Assembly: GCF_021917145.1 (NCBI RefSeq)
Contig: NW_025813938.1
Span: forward strand, 2,116,856-2,180,855
Direction of reading: 5' to 3'
Source of the DNA: Hypomesus transpacificus
Lineage: Eukaryota; Chordata; Actinopteri; Osmeriformes; Osmeridae
Length of the DNA stretch: 64,000 bases
Shown: positions 3,201 to 64,000 of the stretch, one piece after another
Position numbering within the stretch: position 1 is the first letter of the stretch
Layout: the number at the start of each line of letters is the position of its first letter
Program-made: the position numbers and the translations under genes
The notes under the pieces: generated by a model
Database searches by the model: none
Told to the model about the DNA's origin: nothing
What the model saw: the letters and a program-made list of their open reading frames with translations, nothing else

Positions 3201-6200
3201 GATCTTGGTCAGGTTGGTCTTGGCTTCCTCAACCTGCTCTGCCCACACCTCCTGCCCGTAGCCTCCGACCGAGGCTGAGGCCAGCTGCTCCAGCACAAAG
3301 TCCAGCTTCACCTTGTACACCAGCTACACACAGGAAGTTGGAGACGGAGCGCGGGTTGGGTGTACTTCCTGGTTTTATTCCTTGAATTTCTATTTCTTAA
3401 AAAAATAACTGTGCAGTGTTAAGGCTCTTATACTTACCTCAACATCTAGTTCAAATGTTATGGCGAATTTCTCTGCCTCTTCAAATTTGTGTTTGTGTAA
3501 AAGTCGGCTGAGTCTAAAAGGCAAAGAACGTAAAAGTGTAAAAGATGTAATCAAAGTCCTAAAACGAGGAAACACTGGGTTGTGTGTGTGCGCACGAGTG
3601 TGTGACTGTGTGTGAGTGTGTGTGTGAACACATCACCTGTTCTCTGGTAAAGCCTCAGTTAAACACCTGACCACAACAGCAGACAGCTTCTCAGGCTCCT
3701 CTTCCTGGCTACAAGACCAACACCGACAGTAAAACACTGTTACTTTTAGCACAAACTCATTCTGTGTTCATCAGTCAGGCTGTAGGGATAAAACTCCTAC
3801 AAAGTTACACTGTACAATACAGACAGAATACTCGCCCATGCAGATGCTCATAAACACCCTCCAGCAAGTATATCGTGTCCTGAAATCAGAAGGGAAAAGT
3901 GAGGCATGGGAAACAGAGTAATGTTCTGTATGGGTAATAAGTAAGGCCTACTAGTTGTGGTTTACCATGCTCATCCTGGACTGGACGAGGCAGGACGTGG
4001 AGGACACCTCCAGAGAGTAGAGGACGTTCATGGAGGGCAGGGAGCACACCTGGAGGCTTCTCATCTTCAGAACAAACAAAAGATTCCTGTTCAAAATGGT
4101 GTCGTTGTGACTATTTCAAGCGTTTGGAGTGACATGGCGGTGACAAGGTGGCAGAAAAACGGGGCTGTTCTGTACACAGGCATACAATATGAAAAGATAC
4201 ACCCAATGATGCCATTGACTAACCTTATTCTCCTTCTGTACAGTCAAGGTAATGATTTTCATGCTGCCATTTTCTTGGCTGTAAGGAAAATTACAAACAT
4301 TATTTAATTTTTTAACCCTTATGCTGCCTTCGGGTCACATGACCCCGGTTCAAACGAACCATTGTTGTGTTTACCCAATTTTAACCAATACAAAAACAAA
4401 TAAAAATAATTGTATTTTAACCTTCGCAATGTCGGGGGTCTGAGACAGCCCAACAGTTAAAAGAAAATGCTTCACTTTGTTTTCGTATGCGGTAAAGTTG
4501 TCGCAGTACGACGGTGGGTCACAATGACTGATGGGTCAGAATGAACCCGAAGATAACACAAGGGTTAAAGCAATATAGCACAGCCAGAGTGGCTTTGATC
4601 CTGGTGATGATGACACTGCACACTCACACAGCTTTGGAGGCGGAGTCACACTCTGTGATGAGCAGGAAGTCCTGGATGGACACGGCAGGCCAGCAGCACA
4701 CCATGACGAGGTGCTGCACATCCCAGAGGCTCAGGACGCTCTGTCGCCGTGCCAACAAAACCAGGAGGATTTATTATCGTTTTGTTGTGCTTACTAACCT
4801 CTGACCCCGAGAAACCGACCAATCAAAAACAAAGTAATTTATCGGGTCGGTTGTGCTCACCTCAACGTCTAGAACATAGAGGAGACTGTCGACCACCAGC
4901 ATCTTCCTTATCCCTGTGAGGAGAAAAAACACACTTTAAGAACACTTCCAAGACTCCAAATATCGAACAAGGATCGAAGCATTTCAAAGGAGGCAAGCCT
5001 GAACCAGAAGTGGAGGAAACATGGCACTGCCAGTGCAACGTAGAGTCAGGCGTACGTTGTGTTTGTGAAACAAGGAGGATAACCTGGTATCAAACTAGGA
5101 GGATTACCTGGTATCAAACTAGGAGGATAACCTGGTATCAAACTAGGACGATTACCTGGTATCAAACTAGGACGATTACCTGGTATCAAACTAGGACGAT
5201 TACCTGGTATCATACTAGGAGGATTACCTGGTATCAAACTAGGAGGATTACCTGGTATCAAACTAGGAGGATTACCTGGTATCAAACAAGGAGGATTACC
5301 TGGTATCAAACTAGGAGGATTACCTGGTATCAAACTAGGAGGATTAGCTGGTATCAAACTAGGAGGATTAGCTGGTATCAAACTAGGAGGATTACCTGGT
5401 ATCAAACTAGGATTACCTGGTATCAAACTAGGAGGATTACCTGGTATCAAACTAGGAGGATTAGCTGGTATCAAACTAGGAGGATTACCTGGTATCAAAC
5501 TAGGAGGATTACCTGGTATCAAACTGGAGTCTAGTGACTGACAGAGGGACATACTGGGCTGCTGAGGGTCCATTCTCCAGTGGGTTAGAACACTGTCACA
5601 GTCCCCATGCGCCTGAACAAAACAAGCACTCTTTGAAACACTGATTTGGGCGAATAGCGTAGTTTGTTGACCGAATGCAATGATTCAACAGACGAAAATG
5701 TGCATACAAGTAGTTGAGAATGATGGAAGTGGTATATTTCTCAGAATCGTACCCCGATCATCAGGTCGATTCCATTACTAAGGCTGCACACGACTGCAGT
5801 GCTGCAGGCGTCTCCGTGAAACTGTGTGGTGCTGCAGAAGTCTGTCTTGATGCGAGACTGGAGCTGAGTGGGGCAACGGGAGGAGGAGACCATTAGAATC
5901 ATTGTAACTTCAATAAATATTGACATTTATCAACCAGATTTCTTGAAAACGTCTCATGTCCTACCTCTTTCAAAGCCCCCATGTCCCTTTTCTCCAGAGC
6001 TACAGAAACCAGGACAAAATATTTGAACGATGAATGTGACATTCATTGTTCGAATGTGTCATTTAACTCAAGTAACAACTGTAATTATTATAGAAAAAGC
6101 AGTTTACCTGTTTGAATTTTCTCAAGAGCCAGGTTAGTCATGTGGAAAAACCCATCTTTAGTGAGGAGGAACAAGTGGACCATTCCTGCCAACAAGAAAC

Positions 6201-18000: not shown

Positions 18001-19236
18001 GTCACGGTTCAGACATGGATGTTGATTCAGGTGGAGTGCTCAGTCTGGGCCAAGCCTGGTTTATTTGAAAAAAAACCCCATCAGCTACAGCTGCACAACA
18101 GAAGGGGGGGTTTGTTTCTCCCGGATCTCGCTTGCATAGCTGCAAAAACGTTTTTTTCTCCTAACGCTTTCTCCCGTCTCTCTTGTCCAGATTACAGTTC
18201 CCCCCGACACCACCGGAGCTCAGACGGTTTCCAGTTTCAGCCTCCGCTTCCTCCCGGCTCACCCTCCTTCGGCTCACCCCCTCCTTTGCCCCAGAGCACC
18301 CCCCCTGCGACTCCCACTCCACCCCCTCTCCCCAAAGGTACCCCTCCCCTTACCCCCACCAACGGCTCCCCAGCTTTACGTGGACGGGCCTGGGGAAGTG
18401 GTGAGGAGGCCGGGGCCGGGGCTGGGGCTGGGGAGGAGGATGCTTTGACCCTGGAGGAGCTGGAGGAGCAGCAGAGGCTGATCTGGGCGGCATTGGAAAA
18501 CGCAGACACAGCCACCAACAGCGACTCGGAAACGCCTGCCTCTGGAACGCCTGCCTCTGGAACGCCTGCCTCTGGAACGCCTGCCTCTGGAACGCCTGTC
18601 CCCAGCTCTCCCAGCATCTCCACCCCCGTCCATGTTGACACGGAAACAGAAATGGAGGAAGGTGATACTGAAGAGGAGCAGGGCGCGGTTGAGCTGCCCG
18701 GTGGGAGCCAAGAGGATGAGGATGGTGACGGTGCCACAGTGCTCGCAGTTAAACCCAGTGAGCTGCTCATGGCACAGGACAGTCCACAGATCCCTGAACA
18801 AATGAGAGTTCTAGAAGACAGTCCTGAAAGCCCTGCTCCAAAACAGGCCCAAGAGGAGAGTCCTGAAAGCCCTGCTCCAAAACAGGCCCAAGAGGAGAGT
18901 CCTGAGAGCCTTGTTCCAATGCAGGCCCAGGAGGAGAGTCCCGAAAGCCCTGTTCCAATGCAGGCCCAGGAGGAGAGCCCTCTCAGCCCTCCTTCTATCA
19001 AGGTCCAAATCCGGTCTCTGAGTCCTGAGTCATGCCAGGGGGCAGTGGAAAGTGAACTTTCAGAGTCCACAGGGAAGGTGTCAGCGGTGCCCCATCGGAG
19101 TAAGTTTGCAGAGGGCATCATTCCATTTGAGGACACTCCAGAATACACAGAGGTTGCCGAGGCGACTGGGACCTACCTACGAATCAAAGACTTGCTGAAA
19201 GGTTCCCCCCGAAATCAGTCAAAAAACAAGAAGTAA
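15008..19236 (+). CDS. zcchc8: Zinc finger CCHC domain-containing protein 8 (NEXT complex scaffold)
   Basis: ZCCHC8 joins RBM7 and the helicase MTREX in the nuclear exosome targeting complex, which degrades promoter and other unstable RNAs. Fourteen exons: 15008-15190, 15614-15651, 15749-15823, 15908-16007, 16106-16183, 16270-16373, 16483-16548, 16639-16699, 16809-16942, 17065-17207, 17340-17455, 17628-17714, 17919-18030, 18191-19236; 780 aa in frame (human about 707). There is an N-terminal coiled coil. The CCHC knuckle CFNCGLTDHQLRDC falls in exon 8. The PSP domain (RYHAEEVEERFAKYKPGI, then LPPFIYRMRQLGYPPGWL) is in exons 9-10. Exon 13 encodes a basic KKRR signal. The C-terminal exon holds FQFQPPLPPG, DALTLEELEEQQRLIWAALE and the MTREX-region-like TYLRIKDLLKGSPRNQ. 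Intron 9 starts with GC, not GT. The exon 1 donor (GTGTTG) is weak, so that boundary is less certain. Exon 14 contains two coding minisatellites that account for part of the extra length. Confidence 0.96.
17790..17870. repeat. Relic of foldback repeat (see 54290-54510)
   Basis: ATCCTGGTCCTCGGGACTCC, CTGTCCTGCATG and CCAACACAGCCGATTCAAAT match one arm of the inverted element at 54290-54510. It lies in zcchc8 intron 12. Confidence 0.6.
18531..18600 (+). repeat. zcchc8: 15-bp coding repeat in zcchc8 exon 14
   Basis: Four to five near-identical units of ACGCCTGCCTCTGGA encode TPASG repeats in a low-complexity part of the protein. Confidence 0.9.
18818..18980 (+). repeat. zcchc8: 39-bp coding repeat in zcchc8 exon 14
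   Basis: Four units encode 13-residue repeats of the type ESPESPAPKQAQE. The frame is preserved, so copy number changes would alter protein length without a frameshift. Confidence 0.9.
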
Positions 19237-24693: not shown

Positions 24694-44268
<19,575 letters not shown>

Positions 44269-45193: not shown

Positions 45194-48100
45194 TCAGCCT
45201 GTGAGGACTAGGTTGTGTAGTGGCTGTTGGGCGTCTGAAGTGGACAGCCATTTCTCCAGCTGCACCGTGAACTCCACAGACATGGGCTCAGGCTGGTTGG
45301 AAACAGCGTCTTCTGCGTGCACGTCCATCTCACTTTCCTTACGTCCTTTCCCCTTACCTACCGAACGGCAGTTATGACTGTTTAACCGTTAGCCTCACGT
45401 GCTACCGACACTACTGGGAGTTATGTTGGGTTACGCGTGACCTCTGACCTTTAGGGGCTGTAGCGCTCTTCTGGTCTGCGGCCTTTCCTTTCTTCTCCTC
45501 CTTCTTCTTCTCGTCTTTGGTTTTCTTACTCGACTCCTGGTGAGAAACGTACAGCACTGCTTCACGTTCTGCTGCTGTGGGCTGTACATGCTAAATGTTC
45601 CAAGTTTCAGGTTAATTTGCTCATTTGTAAACTACAAGTACAGCTATATTGGAATTATAGATCCTGGCTCCTCTCTATAGTTTTCTAGTGGTCTGTACTG
45701 ATCCTATGAATAAAATAAACCCCTAATCCCATGCCAGCTCAACATTCTTAGCAACATTTCATAAAGTAAATCAGAATCAGAAAGGGATTTATTCACCATG
45801 AAAGTTTGCACAGACAAGGAATTTGCTTTGGCAGGAGGGTGCATACAATAAACATATAGGAATCTTAAATTTAGATATATGGTCTAACTATACTAAGGAT
45901 ACATAAACTAGTATAAATAAAGATGGACTACCTATGCCTAGATATAACTACAACGTTTTACGTTTCGAGGGTGCGCCGCAGGAGCGTAGATCTACCTTCT
46001 CTCTTGAAGCCGTGGTCCTCACCCCGTGTTCTGTTTGCTGCACCCCCAGGTCACACAGGACCGTGACCCTGTGACCCCCCATGGAGAGGTCCTGGAGGGG
46101 TACGTGGACCGAGCCCAGAGCCCTCCGGATCGGAGCGTCTGGGATCAGGTCCGCCGTCGACTCCTTCTTCTTCTTGTCTTTCGATTTTGGCACGGAGCCG
46201 GTTTTGCTTACGGGGCCTACACACTGTGAAAGAAACAAAAACAGGCCGATCCGTCACACACTTTTTTTACACACATTTTGAAATCTTTCGAACTTTTTTT
46301 CGAATATATATTTTCATTCGTAGAAAAAAGTGTGAAACTTCTTGTCACTAATATTTTTCAACCTTTAGATTAAAAAATATTTTATTAGAAAATATTTATT
46401 GTAACCTTTAAAAAGTCTCTATAAATATCTCTGTATTTAGATGTTTACATAATATATTTAGACTGAAATATACAAGAGTAACACATGATTGAGTAATCTC
46501 ACATCTTTGCCCCCTTTCTTGTCTGGGTTGGGTTTGGGTCCTGGGATAAGGTTTAGGTCTGGGGCAGGCCAAGATAGGACCTGGAAAAAATAAAATTAAA
46601 TCACAACCGGACTTCCTGTTAGTCTTTCTGCTTCTTTCTCCACACAGCAGCTCTGGTTCAGCTCTAACCTTCTCCTCCTCGACGGTCAGAGACAGGCCTC
46701 CAAGGAGGAAGCTCTTTAGCAGGCCCAGGTCGGCAACACCGTGGACGCCAGTGTGGCAGAAGTCCATGGTCTCTGCCCACACCAGCTTCGGTGTGCTGTG
46801 TTTTACCACTGGTGGAAAATAAACAAACATGGAGTAGAGTTAGAAAGGTGAGAATGGAAACATACACAAACGATTACACACAAACACTCACAAAATAATA
46901 GAAATGTGAATCGTTAATCAGAGAGACACCGATTAGAAGTGGATTACCACTGTGGGAACGACGGTGAGGATTCCCCGCGCTTCCTGTGGTGCTGATGACA
47001 TGATCTGGCTTCGGAGCATCTGGTCTCTCCTCTGCAGAGCCTGGTGCTGCGTCCGCTAGCGAAGCACCCTCCACGCTCACCTGCTGCCCCACACCGTGAA
47101 CGCCACACAACCACCCGCCACAATCACATCACCTCAAGGACAAATCCTGCTGAGAATGTCGCCGTTGAGGAGGACCACGTGTAAATAAATAAACTTGGAA
47201 GGGTTACCTGGACGTCAGCAGCGGAGGGCTGTCGGTTGAGAAACTCGTAGTTGACAGAGTAGGTGTAAGTGACGACAGGAAACTCGGGCGCGTTGTCACA
47301 CTGACCAATCAGTGGATCAGGAACACCCCTCATTTTACCCACAGTTACCATGACAACCGCCTGGTCCAATATCATGTCTGCAAACAGAGCAAGGCCACGA
47401 CCAGGACATGTTCTTACTCCAGAACAGCCCACCTCAGCAAAACGTCACCAGGCAAAAAAGCAACGGTAATCTTTATCAAAGATGCAGATGGCGCTACTAG
47501 CTGCTGTGTGTTTAAACGTTCAAAAGTCAAGTGGTGTCAAGTGGTGATATGAGGTGTTATCATGTTCGAACAAATCTTCAAAAGTCAAGTGGTGTATTGG
47601 ACGATAATGAACCAGCTCTGCCTGTTCCCTGCCAGTCTGACCTCTGACCTCTCATGTTTGCCAGGCCTCTGAAGCGATGACGATCGTCAGGCGTGACCCT
47701 GGCAGCGTCCAGGTACAGCAGCCGGGGAAGGCTGTCCAAGGTGAACCCTGGGAAGGAGGGGGTCAGGGTGAGGGGGTTTCCCTGCAGGACCAGGGTCCTC
47801 AGGCAGGGCAGGGTGGCCAGGGCCTCCACCATGATACGATGTCCCTGGAAGTCAGACCAGCTGAGGTCCAGAGAGACCAGCTGTGGCCTGAGGCGGGGGG
47901 GAGAGGAGATGGGGGGGGGGGTATGGGGGAGAGGAGATGGGGGGGGGGTATGGGGGAGAGGAGATGGGGGGGGGGGGTATGGGGGAGAGGAGATGGGGGG
48001 GGGTGGACAGAGAGTCTAGGCTGAGCACCACACTGACGAGAGACAGAGTCATTCTAGACATTGAGTTTGTTGCGATGGAGGATGTTCCTTCATCAACCAT

Positions 48101-49956
48101 CTGTTGGTTTTTAGGACTTGTAATGTACTTATTATTATCTGCACAGGCCTGTCCCTGTTTGGTTTTTAGCCTGGAGAAAAGTTTGATACAAACAAAAACC
48201 TTACATCGTGCAGATTACTACTAAACTGTGACACACCACGTTAAACTGCTCAAGAGAGCCACAGGTGCATCTCTACATCTGCTTGTCCCTGAAAACATTT
48301 ACATTTAGTCATTTAGCAGTCGCTCTTATCCAGAGTACAGGGACATTCTCCCCGAGGCAAGTAGGGTGAAGTGCCTTGCCCAAGGACACATCATTTTGCA
48401 CGGCTGGGAATCAAACCGGCAACCTTCTGATTAATAGCCCGACTCCCTAACTGCTCAGCCATCTGAACCCAACGGAATGCGCTTCGCTTCCCCCAGCCTG
48501 TGACACGAGCACTGACCAGAACGCCCCGGTGAGGAGCTGGACGTCTGCAGGGGAGCCCAGCCGGTTGGCGCCCAGACCCAGGTGCTGCAAGCTGGGCCGC
48601 GGATGGCAGCTTAGCCCCTTCAGGTCAGACACCTGGTTGGAATACAGCTCCAACACCTACCAAACAAACACACAATGCCTTCAAGGAAAGACTAAAGTTT
48701 TTTTGGCTGGCACGTAACAATGATGTTGGAACACAATGGAGGTGATTTTGATCGGAATTTAACTCTGAAACTTTCCAAATCACAGACTGAGGTTTTTGGT
48801 CGATTCTGTTAAGAGTCAGTGATTCCACAAGATAAGCTTCTGATTATTGCGAATATAGCTCCACCTCTGGTGTAAGCAGTGTGTCTGACTCAGAGTGACT
48901 CACTCTGAGGGCGGAGGGAAGACTGCCGCTATGCAGATCAGAGATACTGTTAGCACTCAGCACCAGCTCTCTCAAACTGGAGAACCGTAAAAGGTCTTCG
49001 TCGACCACGGACACCTGGTCCACACAAACAAAGTTGCATAAAAAAACATACAAACCATACAAACACAAGTGTCTGTATGGTTACAAATAGAATATATACG
49101 TTAATAACAAACTGTACTTTACATAGTTAGATTGGAATCATTCTATCTCTTTGCGATTGACTTCAATCGCAGTCAATTACGATTCACTGTTCCCACACTC
49201 TGACCACTGAAATACTTTTTTTTAACTCCTCGATCTTCTGCTGTACTTTCTAGAAAACACTGTTTGGACGTCAATTTGGATGAAAAAATCCACTGAGTCA
49301 ATGAAATGTCATGTAACCCAAGGCTGGGGGAGACACACAGATTGGGGAGTCCCCGATCCAGGCCTACTACTTTTACTCACACCTTTATCCACGATCCTCA
49401 GGGTGATGAAGTGTGTGTGGACGGTGTCATCAGGACGACCTTCAGGCCCTCCCACACACAGCTCCCTCAGGGTGGACACCTGGGGGCTCCAGGACCCCTC
49501 CTGTCGCCATGGAGACATGGGACAGGTCAGGAGGTCCCGGAGGCTTTCCTTCTCCTCCTTCTCTGCACCGTCTCTCCCTTCGTCCTCTTCCGCATATCCC
49601 CAGTTCCTCTCCTCGTGTTTGTTACCGGTGGATTTAGTCTGAACACAAGAAGCAGCTTACGTTCAAAAAGGGACATCTTGACAGTTTGAATTCCATTTAC
49701 TTAACAATAACTGCCAATGACTGAATGGATAACTTGTAAAGGTAAAGCTAGCATGCTGGAAAAGTCTATGGATTGATGGTAGCATTCTCCATCAGGTGGA
49801 CCAGTGGTAGTTTTGTTACATTATACATATAAATCTGTGTTATACATGTACAATAGTTTGTGAACTCACCCAGGTACCACACCCACATGGGAAGTCTTTC
49901 AGACAGAGGCTGCGAATCTGTTTGTCCAACACGGATGACAGGGTCACAGTGGCCAT
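45194..49956 (-). CDS. lrrc43: Leucine-rich repeat-containing protein 43
   Basis: Twelve exons in gene order: 49870-49956, 49381-49638, 48904-49014, 48517-48656, 47649-47887, 47208-47377, 46948-47080, 46669-46808, 46503-46580, 46023-46223, 45449-45536, 45194-45357; 602 aa in frame (human about 656). The N-terminal IRSLCLKDFPCG matches the family. Exons 3-5 hold the LRRs (LRELVLSANSISDL; VLELYSNQVSDLKGL; LVSLDLSWSDFQG; LRTLVLQGNPLTL). Exon 6 carries VVTYTYSVNYEFL, exons 8-9 MDFCHTGVHG and LTVEEEKVLSWP. Lysine-rich segments follow (KSKDKKKKE; KDEKKKEEKKGK), and the C-terminus has VEFTVQLEKW. The molecular role is not established to my knowledge; LRR proteins of this type are often cilium-associated, which is only a family-level guess. 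The acceptor of exon 5 abuts a pyrimidine minisatellite. Confidence 0.95.
47889..48005. repeat. G-rich minisatellite at the lrrc43 exon 5 acceptor
   Basis: About four units of GGGGGAGAGGAGATGGGGGG-type sequence (roughly 27 bp) begin directly next to the acceptor AG at 47889-47888. On the gene's strand the array is almost pure pyrimidine and supplies the polypyrimidine tract. Confidence 0.9.
48297..48470 (-). repeat. tRNA-derived SINE (family A), slightly shortened
   Basis: Same body as the other copies, with a deletion around GAGTACAGGGAC. It lies in lrrc43 intron 4, close to exon 4. Confidence 0.8.
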
Positions 49957-51109
49957 GGACAGGATCAGGGCTGGAGGAACTCTACAGGCCTAACTGGCTC
50001 GTCTGTTCCGTGGCTTGTTTACAATCGAGGGGTTGTTAGACGTTGCTTGGCGACCGTTGGTAGAACCACTGGTCTACATTACACGACTACAGAGCTTCAA
50101 TAAAACACGAGGGAATGTATTCTACGTTATTTATTCAGTGTCAACCTTACAACTATCTAATCAAATAAAGTCAATAAAATAATGTCATGATATCTTTGCT
50201 TCTTAAAAAAAAAATATTGGCAACATATGTTGTTTAGCATTGTTTTTAGATGTGTTATACTGTTGAAATAGTTACACATAAGTTTGTAGAGTTCTAATTA
50301 ACCCCTGCTTTGGACTGTCCATGTGTTTTGTGAAGGAACCCCATTACTCACCCTGGTCAGTCCAATAAGCAGGGGAAAAAACACTAATTATTCAATGACT
50401 AATTTCTTTATTTTTGTAATGACAATTATGACCAATTCTGATGAAAAATGAAAAACTGTGGCAATGTTATTATGTCACCTTTACATTGTGACCTTATCCG
50501 ATCCATAGCTCATGCAAACATCTCTTGTAGTCAGAAAAATTGGTTATGAACAAAAGTTTATGTGGAATGATGTTTCGATTTGCTGTATTCAACATAATCA
50601 ACATCTTCTTTGTAGAAATAATTCTGTATTTATGTTGTTTTATGTTATTGTCTGAAGTAGAAAAACCCAAATACAGTTCACCTTTCTATCGTGATTACAT
50701 TATCCTGTCAACAGTGGCTCTCATAACTTCTGTTAATCAAAGCCTGACATCTTGATAATGACACTATCAAATTAAAATGTATTTACATCCCTTTTTACAA
50801 GCAATGTCACAGAGGGCTTTACATACGCCCATAAAACTGCCCCTTAACCAACCTAAACCCTCAGGGAAAACAAGGAAAAAGAGAAAAAATTGAAGAAACC
50901 TTGGGAGGAGAAATTCAGTGAGGGATGTAAATGTACTATTTTAAGCGTTCATCTCTTGAAATGACAGTTTACTTTCCAGTCAACTAGATTTCATCATCCA
51001 TTAGACGCATTTAGGAATTTACTGATTATTATCTTACAGGCTTCATAAATATGCACCAAAGAGAGGTTGAGATTAGAACGCATCAAGCTGATCAGTTGAA
51101 TCTTTTGAA
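49957..51109. promoter_or_regulatory. Divergent region between lrrc43 and the cytokine gene
   Basis: It separates the lrrc43 start codon from the cytokine start codon. A TATA-like CATAAATAT lies at 51044-51052, about 60 bp before the cytokine ATG, consistent with an inducible promoter. A dispersed repeat-like segment occupies about 50795-50932. No coding sequence was recognised. Confidence 0.5.
50795..50932. repeat. Probable dispersed repeat
   Basis: The stretch from CAATGTCACAGAGGGCTTT through CTAAACCCTCAGGGAAAAC to CTTGGGAGGAGAAATTCAG resembles a repeat I recall as common in teleost genomes. There is no second copy in the window, so this rests on memory. Confidence 0.4.
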
Positions 51110-51936
51110 ATGAAGCTCATCGGTAAGCATAGTAGTACTCTGTGTGTGATCTGTTAGACAAAAATGCCTAAGTGTGTCTTTATCCAGATCTTTTACATTT
51201 CAACTCGTCTTTTTTATGTGTATATCTTGCCAGATAATATATAAATGCCTTTTTTGTTTTACCTTTGTTTGATACGTTAATTTGATAATGATCTTGTGTG
51301 CTCCCACAGCAGTGATTATGCTACCCTTGTTCATCGCACAAGTTAAAGGTGCTCCGCTTGAAACCCCAACTCATACCCTGATTGAACGTGTTAACGGAAT
51401 ACTAAAACACTTTGTAAGTAACACATTTTTTTTATCATTATTTCTGTCAGTTTAGGGTAAACATTCCTAACTGGAATCTTAATGGGAGAGGGTTTTGCTA
51501 CAACGGATTGCTGTCACTCACTAAAACAAAATATGGTCCAACAGGAAATAATTGACCTTTTTTCTGTCTTTTCCCTTTCCACCAGAGGAACATCATGGAG
51601 GGGGCTCCTTCTCTGATCCCTGAGTTTGACTATCTGAAGATGCTTGAACCTGGTCAAAACGAAACGTTCACCTGTCATCATCTTTCCAATTTCAGCTGTT
51701 ACATGACAAAAGTGGTAGAGCTGGAGAGCCTAGAAGGCATGTTGCCGGATGACTTCATGGAAATAAATCAAGAGATTAGAGACATGATCGAAATGGAGGA
51801 ATTAAGATGCCACAACAACCAACAAGAAACATGCCAACTTCCATTTAATGACAACCCTACTGAAGCCTTAATATTTATTCAAAATCTCCTCAAGGGCCTT
51901 GTCAAATGTCTGGAAAAAATATTTGAAATGTACTAG
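51110..51936 (+). CDS. Small secreted helical cytokine in the IL31 position (candidate IL-31-like)
   Basis: Three exons, 51110-51122, 51310-51413 and 51586-51936, encode 155 aa. An 18-residue signal peptide (MKLIAVIMLPLFIAQVKG) precedes a mature chain of about 137 aa. Four amphipathic helical stretches are visible (near residues 25-45, 77-90, 94-112, 130-155), the layout of a short-chain four-helix cytokine. Cysteines are at 69, 77, 114, 122 and 147; N-glycosylation sites at N64 and N74. Introns are phase 1 then phase 0, and exon 2 has a tandem CAGCAG acceptor, so Ala5 may be optional. The gene lies between lrrc43 and mlxip, opposite in strand to both, exactly as human IL31 does, and IL31 also has three exons. 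Direct sequence similarity is weak, so other type I cytokines (IL-2/15/21 or IL-3/5/CSF2 types) remain possible. The cytokine assignment is firm; orthology to IL31 is inferred. Confidence 0.85.
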
Positions 51937-52090
51937 ACAGCTTTATTTTATTTTTTATTTATTTTCAATCCATTTTAATTTAAGTATTTATAAAACAGAT
52001 TATGTATCTATTTATTGGTGAAATATTCTATTTTTAATTATTTATAAACATTTGTTAAATTAAACATAAAAATATCTCAATGTATTGGTG
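51937..52090 (+). promoter_or_regulatory. AU-rich element cluster in the cytokine 3'UTR
   Basis: At least four ATTTA pentamers (within 51955-51963 as TTATTTATT, and at 51986-51990, 52010-52014 and 52040-52044) lie in an A/T-rich 3'UTR. Such clusters mark short-lived cytokine mRNAs. A canonical AATAAA is not obvious. Confidence 0.8.
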
Positions 52091-54845: not shown

Positions 54846-57245
54846 AATGCTGTGCCCCCTCAAAAAATAAGTTCCCGTCAATGCACCCCACTGGATCCAG
54901 CCCTGGCGATAAGACATGTGACTTTTCCACCCCTCCCCCTGTCATCACATCCTCTGACCGGCGAGACGCAAGCACAGGAAGAGACAACACGATAACAAAA
55001 GGAGGAAGAAGTGACTTTCAGCGATCTAAAGATACTGGAGAACCCAAGATTCGTTATGGAACCATGATTCAACTTTCTCTAGCGTGAAATAAATCCCCAA
55101 TGCCTCTGGGGTTCAAATAAACGGGTTGTCAGGAAACTCAGCAGAAGTCTGATAACGATCATTCTTTTGACTCGGGTGTGTTGAAGCAGGGAAACATCTC
55201 AATCAAGCAGGGCAGTGGGTCCAGAGGACCAGGGTGGAGAGAGGCTGTGTTAGCGTGACTGCTACTCACTGGGCCTCAGCACGGGTAGAGAGCAGTGTCG
55301 TTCCAGCCACTGTAGGGTGCTCTCACATAGCTCCCCCTTGCTGGTGATGGAGACCGAGCCGTTGAACGACTCAAACAGGGGCTTGATGATGATGCTGAAC
55401 TGTGACAAGTGGGTCAAAGGTCAAATTCATGAAGTGGAGGTTAAACAGATGCAATCTGATGATCAGCTCAAGTCCTCAGAGCCCTACATAGCGTAGATAC
55501 CCTTTGATGACTGGTTTGGAATTTTATGTTTTTTTCCCCTGTGCCTAAAGTTGTCTTTTAACTCAAACAGCATGAAACTGTTTTGGCATGGGGCATCTAA
55601 TCATACAATCAGAATTTAGTAGAAACTTGCATCAGTACACATTAACGTTTTGACTTTAAGAAGCTTGTTTGCGACTGTAATATAGGCCCCTGGGCCCCTG
55701 TGTGCTTACCAGGTTAAAATAAAGATTTAAGGAAAACACAAAACTCAACAAAGTAGTTTTTTTTTTAAGGATACAATCCAGAACTTCCAGTTCTGAAGCG
55801 TGCGACTCTTCACATACTCGTCAAACTTCTCCCTCATGTGGTCGAAGCGGTGTCGTGTTATGGGCACTCCTGTAGCGGGCAACTGCTCCTGGCACGTGCT
55901 GCGAGACACGTGATTGGATGATGGAGAGAGGGGGTGGGGGTGAGGGAGAGAGAAAGGAGAGGCCAAGATTTAGACAGACATAAACGTTACCAGATCTGCC
56001 TTAGCTCTCTATACACGTCTCTCCTCTCTGTCTCCCCCTCAGATCTCTCCTCTCTGTCTCCCCCTCAGGTCTCTCTTCTCTGTCTCCCCCTCAGGTCTCC
56101 CCCTCAGGTCTCTCCTCTCTGTCTCCCCCTCAGGTCTCTCCTCTCTGTCTCCCCCTCAGGTCTCTCCTCTCTGTCTCCCCCTCAGGTCTCTCTTCTCTGT
56201 CTCCCCCTCAGGTCTCCCCCTCAGGTCTCTCCCTCAGGTCTCTCCCTCAGGTCTCTCCTCTCTGTCTCCCCCTCAGGTCTCTCCTCTCTTGTCTCCCCCT
56301 CAGGTCTCTCCTCTCTGTCTCCCCCTCAGGTCTCCACTAACAGGAGACACAGGTGTCCTTCATACAGTGACAGTCGTGTTTCTACTTTATGGAAGCATTG
56401 AGTTCCTCGATCTCCTCGCGGAGCCTCTTGGTCTCTTCCTGCAGGTGTTGTCTGTCCTGCTGTAGCTTTCCCACATACTCCACAGTCTTCTGCAGCGTGG
56501 CTGCGTTGCTGATCTGGAGACACGACACAGAGGAGAGAGGGTCACCGCTGTCCCCTGCACCTTCACAACGACGAGGATCGAGGAACAGAGGTCTGGGTTT
56601 ACGTTTGACTGGGACTTGAGGGAGGGAACCATGTTGCAGAGCGTCTTGAAGCCAATGTTGATGTTGAAGCGTCTCTTCTGCTCAGTGGAGATGTGGGTCC
56701 CTCGGCGACTCTGGGGCAGAAGGTGGGAAGGATGACGAGGACGAAGTGCCGAAACGTTTTTCAGGGCGAGCGCAGACACACCCAAGCAGGCATTGCTGAC
56801 CCTTGTTCTTTTGTGTTCAAACTTACATACGTTTTTGGGGGGATATAGACCCTGTTTTGCTTAAATACAGCTTTGACATTGGCTGACTGTTGACCATTTA
56901 TCATACTGAATTGGAACTGAATTTATTATTAATATGTAAACAAATTATTCATAAATCATTTTTCATAATATTCAATCTGTTCTAAGTATTATCCCTCCAT
57001 TAAGAATGTGACTGCTAGATAGACAGACTGTTACACATGCATACTGACACACACACACACACACACACACCCACCTGGTTGGACTCGTTCTTGGAGAGAG
57101 CTGCCGTGCTGCTGAGGGGGGACTGGGGGCTGGGGGCCTGCTCCGAGCCACAGGGGGAGCCCTGGCCCGAGCCCAGCCCGTCCAGTGCTGAAACACACCA
57201 CACGTCAAAGTACCACACTAGACTCTGTTGTTACTTTGAAAGGCT

Positions 57246-57276
<31 letters not shown>

Positions 57277-60200
57277 GAGAGAGGAGAAAGAGAACGGGAC
57301 AGAGAGAGAAGGAGAGAAAGAGAGAGAGGAAAAAGAGAGAGAGAAGAGAGAGAGACAGAGAAAGAAAGAGAGAGACGGAGAGAAGGACAGAGAGAGAGGG
57401 AAAGATCATCTCACCAGCTCCTGAGGGCGCTGTAGTCTTGTGCCTGGTCTCCTCTTTAGGCACGATGAGCTGCTGAGCCTTGTGAGTTTGGGGCAGGATG
57501 TGGAACCCTTGAGACTGACAGAGAGAGAGACCAGGACACACAGTGTTACCATCGAGCTCTCCTACTGGGCTCAGGGCCCCAACCACAGGAGAGTTAGGCC
57601 AGGTGGGCTCCTACCGGTGCCAGGCTGGGCGGGCCGGCCAGGACCATGTTGGAGGGCACCGCATCTGGCTTCAGGGGGCTCTGGGTGACCAGCACTGCTC
57701 CAGTGTGCCCTGGGAAAGGAGCTGATGGGCAGGGGGGACAGGGGACAGGGGGCAGGGAGGACAGGGGGGCAGGGAGGACAGGGGGGACCAGGGAGGACAG
57801 GGGGACAGGGGGGCAGGGAGGACAGGGGGGCAGGGGGGACAGGGGGCAGGGAGGACAGGGGGGCAGGGGGGACAGGGGGGCAGGGAGGACAGGGGGACAG
57901 GGAGGACAGGGGGGACAGGGAGGACAGGGGGGACAGGGAGGACAGGGAGGACAGGGGGGACAGGGGGGACAGGGGGGCAGGGAGGACAGGGGGGCAGGGA
58001 GGACAGGGGGGCAGGGAGGACAGGGAGGACAGGGGGGCAGGGAGGACAGGGAGGGGTGCTGGGTTACATGAGGCTGGTAGAGCTAACAAGAACATTACTT
58101 CTGCGCACGTGAGTATTTCCTTATTAAATAACTCAAGTTCTCAGTCAGCAGTCGTAGCAGCCCTTGAGAGGAATTGAAGACAGGTATCGGCGCCACCGTG
58201 TGGAGAGAGGTGAAAGTGGACTAACCTGTCAGGATGAGGTGTGAGGAGGAGGGGAGAGGATTGGCCGGAACGATCCTCTGTACGTGGCGTGTTTTTTTGC
58301 TGGAGTTGGAGGGGTGGATTGGTTTGGGCAGGGCAAAAGTCTGGGGGTGCTGGCGGAGCGGGGGCGGCGAGGGACCCTGGGGCTGGAGGGGAGGAGCGTG
58401 GCTGGAGGGGGAGCAGAAGTCTGGGGCGTGGCTGAAGGACGGGGCGGAGTCTCTGGGCGGGACACTGAAGGAGGGGGCGGAGTCTCTGGGCGGGACACTG
58501 AAGGAGGGGGCGGAGTCTCTGGGCGGGACACTGAAGGAGGAGGTGGAATCTCTGGGCGGGACACTGAAGGAGGGAGCGGAGTCTCTAGGCTGGACACAGA
58601 AGGAGGGGGCGGAATCTCTGGGCGGGTCACTGAAGGAGAGGGCGGAGTCTCTGGGCGGGACACTGAAGGAGGGGGCGGAGTCTCTGGGCGAGACACTGGG
58701 GGAGGGGGAGGCTGTGTGTGTGATGACCGTCTGGGACGGGGTCTCTTCCAGACGGCTGGCCGGGGGCAGGGGGGGACGGGGGGCGGTCTGGTTGAGAGGG
58801 GAGACCGCTGGAGCCCTGGGGCCTATGGGACCTGGGAACAGGGGCAGGTAATCGTGCATGTAGGCAGGGCATCCAGAAGTCCCGCTGGCCTGAACAGGCA
58901 TGCTGGAGGTGAGGGGCAGGGGGGAGGGGAGGGACAGGGGGGAGGAGAGGGACAGGGGGTCTGGGGGGGGGCCCAGATCAGTCGACAGGTGCATGGAGGG
59001 GAGGAGCTGAGCCTGAAGTCATGAGAAGAGACACACACAGATTAGCTAGAGGACGAGAAGCAGTGTGGCACCACCTACTTGATCTGTGGTCAGAAGGCCT
59101 CACTGCCACTGAGCTATACCTGTTCCTCTAGACAGTGTTAGGGCTGTGTGTGTTAAGGGTGTGCGTGTGTGTGTGTGTTAAGGGTGTGCATGTGTGTGTG
59201 TGTTAAGGGTTTGTGTGTGTGTGTTAAGGGTGTGCGTGTGTGTGTGTGTGTTAAGGGTGTGTGTTAAGGGTGTGCGTGTGTGTGTGTGTGTGTTAAGGTT
59301 GTGAGGCATGGGGTTTACCTGTGTCTGACAGCTGCTACTGGGGACAGCAGAGACAGACTGAGCAGTGAGGGAAGCGGAGTATAACACAGGCTGGCGGTGA
59401 AATAAGTCTGGAAGAAAGTCGCGGGGTTAGTCACCGATTAGTAAAAACACACGCTACCGTGGCAACCGTCACACGTGCTACTGGCTGCATTAAGAGCAGC
59501 AGAGTGACAACGACACAGTGCTCCAGGGTCCTGGTGAAACAAACGTGGGGGGAGGTGTTATGTTGCTGTGTCCCCCTGTGGGCCCCCTGCGGTTACCCTG
59601 GAGCGGCTCGAAGGAGTCCATGAAGTCCAGGTTGGGCTGTAAGGGGATGAGTCCTGGCTGGATCATGTCTGCGTTTCCTGCATGGGCTGAGGACAACAGA
59701 GGACCCATGTCAGAGTGACAACAGACCAGGGAGTGTCTATAGACGGGAGAATGATACAAGTGTTCATTTCGTGTATTCATTTGGGAGATGGTTTTATCCA
59801 AACTGATGGGGTGGATGGATCATTACCAGGCTTCTGCAGAGCTAGATAAGGACCCGTTTATTTGAGCCAGGTGTATTGGTGTGTCTTAGTGATCTAAGAG
59901 GCTGAGCTTGATGACGCGCCCTCCTCACCGATCTCCCTGGGGTTGGGCCAGCCTATGGGCTGGTGCGAGGCCAGCGTTGAGAAGAGTGTGTCTGAGAACT
60001 CAGACATCAGTACGTCCATGTCGAACAGGGAGTCCATCTCCATGGGGATGGGAGAGTCGCGGCCCCTGCGAGCGATGCGACGCCCCGCCAGCTCCTCGTC
60101 CTGCCAAAAGGAGACACGGAGGGTGTCTGGAAAGACTTCCCCAAACAGGGAAAACTGCTCCTCCGGACCCTTGGAGGGTTAGAAATGCAACACAAGCCTG

Positions 60201-61065
60201 CCAGTCAGTATCGAGAGCATGCAAGATTCACACACTAATTCAGCAGATGAAATCTGGTTGTTAAAAATAAAATAAAAAATTGTTAAAAGAACACATCCAA
60301 ATCTCTGTATCAGCTATTCATCCCCATTGTTATGATCAAAAATATTTTGCTTGGTTAAGTTAGTCTGTGCAACAAGACACATGCCTCCAAACATATCTTG
60401 CAGATTTGATCAGCAAGATGCTACCGCACATAAGTCAAAACACCCAGAATAGACACCCAGAGCAGACCAAAACTAATACTGTTCACCACATTCAGGCATG
60501 AATAAGCCTAGTAAACACTAAACACGTTTTCAATGAAGATCATCATAGAATTTCTCTCTTACTTTAGGACTAGGCCTAATCCATGTCTGGGAAACTGTAC
60601 CCGTATGTCCATAAGATGCATGTATGCTAATGGAAACTAAGAATATTCAGATATTGTAGTATATACCTTGAGAAGGCTTGACAGATCATCATCTTTGTGC
60701 TTCTGTAACTGTGACAAACCGCAAATCAATGTTTTTACATGTGAGAATTAAGCACAGCAAACGACTGTACTCAATTGGATAATCAAGCCAATTATCTTAT
60801 TAGCTATATTACATTAAAGTCTGAAATGAATGCTTAATAAAACAAATTAAACAAGTCATGTGAGTGGTGCATTATGAAATTAAAAAAAAAGACGTCAAAA
60901 AATACAGCATCACAATCTGATTCTAAGATACCCTCTTTTTGAAGTAAGTCCTCCATTTGTGATACTCTCTGATGACTATTTCAATTCTTCTCTTCCAGTA
61001 CTTCCCCTCCGTGGCTATCGCCTGTGGAGAGTAGAGGGAAGGGACAGCCGGGTAACGCAACAACA

Positions 61066-61102
<37 letters not shown>

Positions 61103-63440
61103 AAGAGAGAACAAGAGAGAGAACAAGAGAGAGAACAAGAGAGAGGTAATCAGCAATAAGGCTTCTCTTGAAAGGAAGCTCGAACATTATCCATGGGATG
61201 AAGAGAAGTGGATGACGGCCCGGTCTGATGTTACCTCGGCTGGGCGGTTATCCTCCATGTCTATGTTCCCATCTAAAGGAGTCACAAAATGGCACACTGG
61301 GTTTTCCCTTTTTTCCACATCTGTAAGATCGGGGGGGAAAATAATTGAGAGTTGCAGTTAGGAGACAGGAACCTCCCTCTGTTCCAACCTTGCTCAAAGT
61401 CACATGCATGTCCATCTTCCTTCAGGTACGCTTTCAATGTTTAGAGAAACACCGGATGTGTACGAAACTCTTACATTGCATATACCAGGCCCTCCAAATA
61501 GCGTTGTTGAGTCGGATTTTGTCCCTCCATAGCAACTTTAGCCCTTTGAAGTTCTTCCATTTAGGGGACACTAACTTGCCACTGAAAAGGAGAGGAAGCA
61601 TCAGGAATTATGAACATAATATTAATGTATTTACTTATTTGGGGGGGGGGGGGTTACAGTGCTAGTTGTGTTGTGAGCAGCGTTTGAGTTCTGCACTGCT
61701 AGAAATGTTGGAACCAGCAGACGTTGTGTTCATTCACCTATCGGTACACTAAACCGGTCGGTAGTGTGTGCAAATATTTTTGATTGCCTCCATGGTAATG
61801 AAGCCAGGGACGCCGTATAGAGGGGGAAATTTAGGACAATTCCAAGGGCCCCTGAATGACAGGGGCCCCAAAAAATTTAAAAACTAATAGAGGCCCAAAA
61901 TTCCTGGGGGCGCCACTGAATGTAGCCATACTGTGTAGCTGTAAGCCTGTGGAATCGCCCACTCCTCACCAGATTTTATTTGTCTTTTTTTTCGTGGTAC
62001 TATACGTTGTATATGAAGGCTGATGTGATGAGTCTGAGGTTGATGAGGTTACTATAAAAACAAACGATTCGATTGATATCTCAGGTCTGAAAAGGAAATC
62101 GGAAAATACTGAGCACCCACGTGTGCCGGACTGCCAGGCTACATTCAGTTAAAATTAAACATTGCAGTTGGTGCTAAGTGGAGCGTTTGTCATAGTGTGA
62201 TTGGTTTTGTCGCTGTCAGTCCCCTACTCCATATCCTATCCACCAATCACAGCGTGCGCCCGTGAGCACCCTCGGAGGAAAACATAAATCGGCGCCTATG
62301 GCTGGATGATAGACTGACGTCACTGATGGTGCATTAAAGGACTTTCCAGACGGAACCCCAACACTGAACAGACAAGTCCATAGGGAGCAGTTGGAAGATT
62401 AACGCTTCCTAGATCAAAACAAAGGAAAAGCAAGATACCACAGACAATCTGCTCATACCAATCAACCAGTTTTTTAAGTTGCACTGAAATGATCAGTAAA
62501 TCGTTGCACACATTTTTTTTCCATTTATGTTTTTCATTCTCACACAAACAACAACCTGGGTACTTAAGTTAGGGCCTTTGAGCAATGTGCAAAAGCCTTT
62601 TATGCCCTAATAATAGCCCTTTCCCTGTTGCGCACACACAATGTAAGATTGAGTTTCTCCTAGCAGCTGTCTTAATTCCCCCCCACAACATTGCACAAGA
62701 CTTGCACAAGTAAAATACGGAAAAGGGGGGGTCGTGTTAGTGATGGTCTTTTTAGTGGGGGTCTTTATAATGGATCGTCTCCGGCATTCCCTGAGTATTG
62801 AGCAAGATGCCTGAAACTTGAGACTCGTGACTGCAAGCTGCACCCATATCCAATCATAGAGTGTAGCGAGCTATCATATCACTTTCACTATCCTAAACTC
62901 GGAGGAACCGTTGAATAAAGTCGTGATTAAGATGATCACGGTGAATTATGCATAATATAAAATGCAAGTTGCTCAACATTAGCTAGAGCATTTTATATGA
63001 TTGGTAGCAGAAACTTCATGGTAACGAGCTAACAATAAGCTAGACCTAGCCAGGTCGTCCAACTCATTGAAAGTTAGGTACGTAGTCGTAGAGGTATACA
63101 AGCTAATTTTAGAAAAAAAATACCTGTATGCAAGTGTCATGCACTCGAACAGTTTAGTCAACGACGCATCTATTGATAGATGTGATGTACTTGTCTTCCC
63201 AAAGTGATAAGTTTGACAGGTCTGCTTGTTCACTGTGTCAAAGTCGTAGCCCTTTTTTGGTGGATGTTCAATGTGTGGTGAAGACACCATGAAGTGACCA
63301 CTGTGGATGATCTGTGATTCACGTCCATCGGACTTCTTAAATCCCAATTGGGATTCCTCTGCGTCCGAGTCATCGTCTTGTTCCTGCTTGATACTCGCCG
63401 GGGTACGGCGATATTGTCGTCGTGGTTCTCTGTTAGCCAT
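54061..63440 (-). CDS. mlxip: MLX-interacting protein (MondoA), glucose-responsive bHLHZ factor
   Basis: MondoA dimerises with MLX and responds to glucose-6-phosphate, moving from mitochondria/cytosol to the nucleus to activate genes such as TXNIP. Exons in gene order: 63124-63440, 61475-61581, 61235-61320, 60932-61021, 60667-60708, 59929-60100, 59597-59686, 59319-59407, 58226-59012, 57615-57709, 57415-57514, 57075-57187, 56603-56710, 56386-56513, 55775-55898, 55270-55399, 54061-54182; 899 aa in frame (human about 919). The Mondo conserved regions are intact (SQIIHSGHFMVSSPH, VNKQTCQTYHFGK, GKLVSPKWKNFKGLKL, YWKRRIEIVIREYHKWRTYF), as is the transactivation segment (MLIGHT-like NADMIQPGLIPLQPNLDFM). 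The bHLHZ is in exons 13-14 (THISTEQKRRFNIN; LQKTVEYVGKLQQDR). The C-terminal dimerisation domain follows (LPATGVPITRHRFDHM; LRQLSTSTSILTDPA). VNKQTCQTY favours MondoA over its paralogue ChREBP. Exon 6 could start 72 nt earlier without a frame change. Confidence 0.97.
54290..54510. mobile_element. Foldback (inverted-repeat) element
   Basis: The left arm (CAATCCTGGTCCTCAGGGAC ... CCTGCTCCAACACACCCGAT) and right arm (ATTTGAATCAGGTGTGTTGG ... GAGGACCAGGGTTGAGAACC) are inverse complements over about 75 bp. There is no ORF. Single-arm relics lie at 17790-17870 and 55165-55245. Confidence 0.8.
54771..54866. repeat. Inverted repeat around a 41-nt poly-C run
   Basis: A left arm (54771-54798) and right arm (54841-54866) of about 25 bp (AATGGAATGCTGTGCCCCCT and complement, one 2-nt difference) flank C41 at 54800-54840. 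It lies in the last mlxip intron. Confidence 0.9.
55165..55245. repeat. Relic of foldback repeat
   Basis: GACTCGGGTGTGTTGAAGCA, GAAACATCTCAATCAAGCAG and GAGGACCAGGGTGGAGAG match the right arm of the element at 54290-54510. Confidence 0.6.
56030..56338. repeat. 26-bp pyrimidine minisatellite after mlxip exon 14
   Basis: About ten full or shortened units of TCTCTGTCTCCCCCTCAGG begin about 50 bp beyond the exon 14 donor (minus strand). Confidence 0.93.
57243..57410. repeat. GA-rich microsatellite, mlxip intron 11
   Basis: Imperfect (GA)n/(GAGAGAA)n tract; pyrimidine-rich on the gene's strand, lying upstream of the exon 12 acceptor at 57188. Confidence 0.9.
57722..58057. repeat. GGGACAGGG minisatellite upstream of the mlxip exon 10 acceptor
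   Basis: Irregular 9-19-bp units of GGACAGGGGGGCAGGGA fill most of intron 9 and end about 12 bp before the exon 10 acceptor (57710). On the gene's strand this is an almost pure C/T tract. Confidence 0.93.
58431..58712. repeat. mlxip: 33-bp coding minisatellite in mlxip exon 9
   Basis: About eight units of 33 bp (containing GAGTCTCTGGGCGGGACACT) encode 11-residue repeats of the type SFSVPPRDSAP within the proline-rich middle of MondoA. The frame is kept throughout. Confidence 0.93.
59150..59300. repeat. (GT)n / TTAAGGGTGTG composite repeat near the mlxip exon 8 donor
   Basis: Runs of GT alternate with GTTAAGGGTGTGCG about six times, ending about 18 bp from the exon 8 donor at 59318. Confidence 0.85.
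61066..61143. repeat. GA microsatellite in mlxip intron 3
   Basis: (GA)n followed by repeats of GAGAGAACAA, about 45 bp from the exon 4 acceptor. Confidence 0.9.
61582..63123 (-). other. mlxip: mlxip intron 1
   Basis: A 1.5-kb intron. A short G run lies at 61641-61653, and a likely dispersed repeat at about 61800-61915 (CAGGGACGCCGTATAGAGG ... CCTGGGGGCGCC). No genes were recognised. Confidence 0.5.
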
Positions 63441-64000
63441 TACTGCTAGCTAGCTAATTAAGTAACCAAAACAGTTGTCTCCAGCGCAGCAGCTAACGAT
63501 AGCAACGTAGCTATCTAGCCTATCTATCAGTGGTACAAGTATTTGGAATAACACAAATACTACCAGCAAATAAACTACCAAGTTAGCTGGTTAACTAATG
63601 CATCGAGTTCTCAAACTACTCATGCTTGTTATTCGTTATCTGGCTTTGTAGTTGATAAGCTTGCTAAACTTGTTTTGCTAACTAGCAGGCTTGCTAGCTA
63701 GCTGACTACCAGCTGACGAAAGTGTTCGCTAAGGAGTTGATTCTACGGTAAGACCTGCTACTCTGCAGTTGCTCCGTCAACTCAAGAATGATTGGCTGCA
63801 GCCACAGCACCACCCTCTGCTGAAAATAACTATCCTGAAATTGTTAGCTAAAGCACAAAGCAGAACTGAATGACTCCTGCAGACTTTATAAATGATAGTC
63901 GTTTACGCTCAAAGCATGTCACATACACGATACAGATCTATATTGTTTATTTCAATATTTGAGGGTAAAGACGCTGTAACAAACTGTGTTGTACTGTATT
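63441..64000 (-). promoter_or_regulatory. mlxip: mlxip 5' flank
   Basis: Upstream of the mlxip ATG. The first 280 bp are dense in GCTAGC/GCTAAC motifs, as at the other gene starts. No neighbouring gene is visible before the right edge. Confidence 0.5.

Follow-up and report, generated by a model that had tools for sequence, protein, structure and literature searches.

A candidate IL-31-like cytokine gene at the IL31 locus of the ray-finned fish Hypomesus transpacificus

In mammals, the receptor of interleukin-31 (IL-31) pairs with an OSMR-type chain, and signalling proceeds through JAK-STAT (PMC7902767; papers are cited here for excerpts of their text). In these excerpts, a 2016 review gives IL-31 as unknown in fish (PMC4929537), a 2021 survey places the first IL-31 in rodents and its first receptor in lampreys (PMC8226699), and a 2026 survey describes IL-31 as exclusive to mammals (PMC13203501). 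IL31 is also listed in a marsupial (PMC4662006). An IL-31 receptor gene has been reported in salmon (PMC12896750, PMC7509425, PMC13183206), and the elephant shark has been credited with IL31RA (PMC12162339). We found no fish IL31 among the matches listed from the open-access literature; subscription journals and gene databases were outside this search, and an annotation may exist. Here we analyse a stretch of 64,000 nucleotides (the window) from Hypomesus transpacificus, located at C270:2116856-2180855 of a genome of 437 Mb in 376 contigs. It carries a gene for a small secreted protein between lrrc43 and mlxip, which is an IL-31-like candidate at the IL31 locus. From its position and circumstances, this gene is likely to be the ray-finned-fish orthologue of IL31. 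A preliminary description of the window, made from the sequence alone, had given IL-31 as chiefly known from mammals and was aware of no described fish orthologue.

The three-exon coding model, read from the window sequence, spans 51110-51936 on the plus strand and yields a product of 155 residues. The coding part of exon 1 (51110..51122, +, 13 nucleotides) encodes MKLI and the first base of codon 5, and ends in phase 1 at a GTAAGC donor. Exon 2 (51310..51413, +, 104 nucleotides), bounded by the acceptor CCCACAG and the donor GTAAGT and ending in phase 0, encodes what is left of the leader, together with the first stretch predicted to be helical. Exon 3 (51586..51936, +, 351 nucleotides including the stop) provides the last 116 residues, which include each of the five cysteines and the two sites for N-glycosylation. 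The introns, of 187 and 172 nucleotides, are of the GT...AG type with phases 1 and 0, and the frame is free of stops and of broken splice sites. The protein starts with the hydrophobic leader MKLIAVIMLPLFIAQVKG, followed by a mature chain of about 137 residues; its cysteines are at positions 69, 77, 114, 122 and 147, and its NxS/T sites at N64 and N74. The model thus confirms the secreted product first described at these coordinates, including the number of its cysteines and of its N-glycosylation sites. No strict TATA[A/T]A motif was found upstream of the gene; CATAAATA (51044..51051, +), read directly from the sequence, is a possible but weak TATA-like element. In the 3' untranslated stretch, a motif search found an AU-rich element of five ATTTA motifs (51957..52044, +; 2.0 expected, and 4.3% of shuffles reach five) and a possible polyadenylation signal, ATTAAA (52059..52064, +). 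The AU-rich mRNA is therefore probably short-lived.

The gene order resembles that around mammalian IL31. In the horse, the order is MLXIP, IL31, LRRC43, B3GNT4, DIABLO, CLIP1 (PMC6402180), which bears out the earlier statement that mammalian IL31 is located between MLXIP and LRRC43. In the fish, the order is clip1 - lrrc43 - candidate - mlxip; the comparison covers these four genes, B3GNT4 and DIABLO being left out. The candidate (+) is on the opposite strand to both lrrc43 (-) and mlxip (-), an arrangement that human IL31 shares with respect to its own two neighbours. The pieces of lrrc43 are found at 45197..49080 (-, extent by eye): an 81-residue piece of 47581-48015 matches LRRC43 in the PDB (9ijj_5C) at 2.9e-18, with the next protein family at 4.1e-9, while the other pieces were recognised by eye; the Pfam LRR matches of the lrrc43 pieces were below the cut-off. 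The pieces of mlxip are found at 56385..63449 (-, extent by eye) and contain a bHLH domain (PF00010, 7.3e-6); a PDB sequence search with the bHLH piece gave no match, and we take the Mondo-type motifs of this neighbour to point to mlxip. These matches and motifs uphold the placement of the candidate between lrrc43 and mlxip. Beyond lrrc43, clip1 (25038..44265, +, extent by eye) is identified by CAP_GLY (1.5e-25) and CLIP1_ZNF zinc knuckle (3.1e-16) matches. In addition to locus and order, the candidate resembles mammalian IL-31 (IL31, PF15209) in secretion and in its length (about 140 mature residues). The number of exons fits as well, although the three exons of mammalian IL31 are a statement of the preliminary description, no paper on that exon structure having been found among the literature matches listed. 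The intron phases 1 and 0, which suit LIF/OSM-type genes and not short-chain cytokines, also speak for the IL31 reading.

The comparison of protein sequences is divided. We compared the candidate with profiles of 18 cytokines, using 3000 shuffles as reference. IL-31 ranked first: a profile of three IL-31s was equalled by 10 of the 3000 shuffles, mouse IL-31 alone by 11 and dog IL-31 alone by 12, whereas the result was weak for human IL-31 alone (583/3000). In the alignments, C69 and C147 of the candidate coincide with IL-31 cysteines, and N64 falls on an N-glycosylation site of human IL-31 in both settings and of dog IL-31 in one of two settings; human IL-31 thus shares two cysteines and N64 with the candidate. 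Several results weigh against orthology with IL31. A Pfam search with the spliced protein returned 0 families, and in particular not the IL31 profile PF15209, which is built on known IL-31s, so that it tests recognition and not a property of the protein, and which recovers human IL-31 at 2.5e-57; exon 3 alone gave nothing but DUF6520 at 0.13, and no cytokine. Identity with mammalian IL-31 is only 20-21% (25 of 117 aligned residues for human, 26 of 128 for dog). In global alignments, IL-9 came first (Z 3.96 and 4.22), so that the two kinds of test disagree. Moreover, the candidate has five mature cysteines, whereas human IL-31 has three. A PDB sequence search with the spliced protein gave 4 matches, 0 of them cytokines. 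PF15209 had no match in the whole 437-Mb genome, a null that is uninformative because control genomes gave nothing either. The 2026 survey sets its BLAST limits at 1e-5 and 30% identity (PMC13203501), in a passage that names invertebrate phyla and with uncertain use for fish; our candidate would fall short of these limits. A best match to another cytokine family had been named beforehand as a reason to abandon the IL-31 reading: IL-31 does come first of the 18 by profile, but IL-9 comes first by global alignment and PF15209 does not match. The locus, the gene order and strand, the secreted product with its size, and the number of exons all conform to orthology with IL31, which is likely rather than proven, the sequence tests being split.

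The lead of IL-9 in global alignments, with IL-5 second in one setting, is what would be expected if another class I helical cytokine, IL-3/IL-5/IL-9-like or restricted to fish, had moved between lrrc43 and mlxip and used another receptor. IL-9 and IL-3/5 share with the candidate a short mature chain, and in the profile test IL-3 (equalled by 60 of 3000 shuffles) and IL-9 (by 65) come directly after IL-31. They are, however, outscored there by the IL-31 profiles, and the IL-9 score may owe much to many cysteines. Such a move would also require that locus, strand and size all agree by chance. In addition, IL-9 and IL-3/5 genes have another gene plan and another locus than the candidate, and the exon plan of short-chain cytokine genes, which differs, counts against this explanation. 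We consider it unlikely, but not negligible.

Another IL-6-family cytokine (OSM-, LIF- or CNTF-like), or a duplicate of one, might instead have taken or kept this place. The candidate has intron phases of the LIF/OSM type. IL-6-family cytokines, M17 (LIF/OSM-like) and CNTF-like, are present in fish (PMC4929537). However, the profile results of OSM, LIF, IL-6, CNTF and CLCF1 were poor, being equalled by 708 to 2083 of the 3000 shuffles; the human LIF, OSM and CNTF profiles were at shuffle level, and about 137 mature residues are few for such cytokines. No paralogue or second copy of the candidate was found in the 437-Mb genome, by a search that scores only its best candidates; it returned the candidate's own two larger exons and one match on another contig (C13, E 3.1), rejected as a relative because it is at chance level. 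No relatives were found among the viral contigs scanned. That the candidate is another IL-6-family cytokine, or a duplicate of one, is highly improbable.

Structure prediction covered exon 3 only and gave three helices with low confidence (mean predicted local distance difference test, pLDDT, 48.1). Compared with the PDB, this model had no match at E<=0.001. Among the best 50 of 112 rows, ferritins were on top (best E 1.1), a leptin complex ranked 5, IL-6 ranked 30 and 42, and CNTF 50, all with E >1. With a ferritin as best match to a low-confidence three-helix model, we rejected this fold search as evidence. The predicted exon-3 model does not establish a four-helix fold.

The candidate is a real gene. 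Its last exon alone is unremarkable, as 23 of 300 simulated regions hold an open reading frame of at least 126 residues, and its codon usage gives no clear signal, the candidate frame being the best of six yet inside the range of non-coding stretches; both measures were dropped as uninformative. We then considered the whole plan: a short ATG exon, two good introns, a leader that is hydrophobic, and 80 codons or more in the last exon. In the window and nine 10-kb loci (308,000 strand-bases), one such model was found, exactly at the coordinates of the candidate, and none was found in 2000 simulated regions; because the criteria were fixed after the model had been seen, these counts are indicative and should not be read as an exact probability. 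The length of the last exon and the codon usage leave room for frames open by chance or for a gene in decay, but this explanation is most improbable given the rarity of the full model, the frame without stops and the intact splice sites. The product is probably a cytokine.

We then searched the genome for the receptor with human IL31RA and gp130 sequences as probes. The il6st gene was found on contig C22 at about 7.54 Mb (+). Arranged tail to tail with il6st is the gene of a second receptor of the gp130 type (about 7549.2-7554.2 kb, -). On the minus strand, this second receptor gene is adjoined by a vasa-type helicase gene that we take as ddx4 (vasa 5.8e-36, DDX3X 7e-33; a shorter piece has DDX3X as its best match, at 1e-4, and not vasa). 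Beyond il6st, an ankrd55-like gene was named by eye and had no significant Pfam match. Human IL31RA is located 24 kb from IL6ST (PMC7902767), ANKRD55 and DDX4 being treated as neighbours (PMC8801523). The second receptor gene is thus at the IL31RA position, ankrd55 being recognised by eye. The orthologue reading is strengthened, because a gp130-type receptor gene occupies this place. The second receptor displays the motifs WSEWS, VPDP (box-1-like) and YWNQ (YxxQ), as well as a stretch that spans the membrane. It also has an N-terminal immunoglobulin (Ig) domain (PF06328, 28.9 bits for a cut-off of 28.8). To our knowledge, mammalian IL31RA has no N-terminal Ig domain. Its five fibronectin III domains are described in PMC7902767. 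The domain plan of the fish receptor thus departs from that of mammalian IL31RA, and because of this Ig domain we name it only a positional IL31RA candidate. Moreover, IL31RA is not its closest relative by sequence: its cytokine-binding part scores 68.0 bits with LEPR (in two stretches), 59.4 with gp130 and 41.4 with IL31RA, and its second part 23.0 bits with gp130, IL31RA being absent among the matches listed. As LEPR and gp130 outscore IL31RA, the receptor is identified by its position. Contig C22 also carries, at about 13.9 Mb, an OSMR/LIFR-like gene whose exon matches are collinear. Separately, a fragment with a WSEWS-type motif at C24:5062564-5062764 resembles gp130/IL31RA.

Taken with orthology to IL31, these genes suggest a mechanism modelled on that of mammals. 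Stimulated immune or epithelial cells would secrete, from an unstable AU-rich mRNA, a helical cytokine that is glycosylated and has a mature chain of about 137 residues. This cytokine may bind the gp130-type receptor encoded beside il6st, which would pair with an OSMR/LIFR-type chain and start JAK-STAT signalling. Somewhat more cautiously than for orthology, we favour the view that the IL-31/IL31RA pair predates the split of mammals from ray-finned fish. Its receptor would have been gp130-like and would not yet have lost the Ig domain, and IL-31 would seem specific to mammals only because ordinary searches miss a sequence that evolves so fast.

Several tandem repeats were also observed in the window. 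A 33-bp repeat (58432-58708, 8.4 copies) lies in a minus-strand open frame of mlxip, with PPRDSAPSFSV-type repeats, and is possibly a coding repeat in the middle part of this gene. Minisatellites within clip1 are located at 33282-33718 (48 bp, 9.1 copies, 99% matches), 39483-39712 (33 bp, 7.0 copies, 93% matches) and 41985-42351 (41 bp, 9.0 copies, 100% matches). Elsewhere, a 39-bp repeat (18813-18981, 4.3 copies) lies in a 468-residue plus-strand open frame without Pfam match, and a 24-bp repeat (5068-5529, 19.4 copies) has more than one frame open.

Because a cytokine-type gene sits at the place of mammalian IL31, IL-31 signalling may be older than mammals. A ligand candidate at this conserved locus would give the IL31 receptor reported in salmon a partner. 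If orthology is true, this itch and type-2 cytokine would trace its origin to the ancestor of bony vertebrates. The barrier and nerve functions of IL-31 would then become open to study in fish skin and gill.
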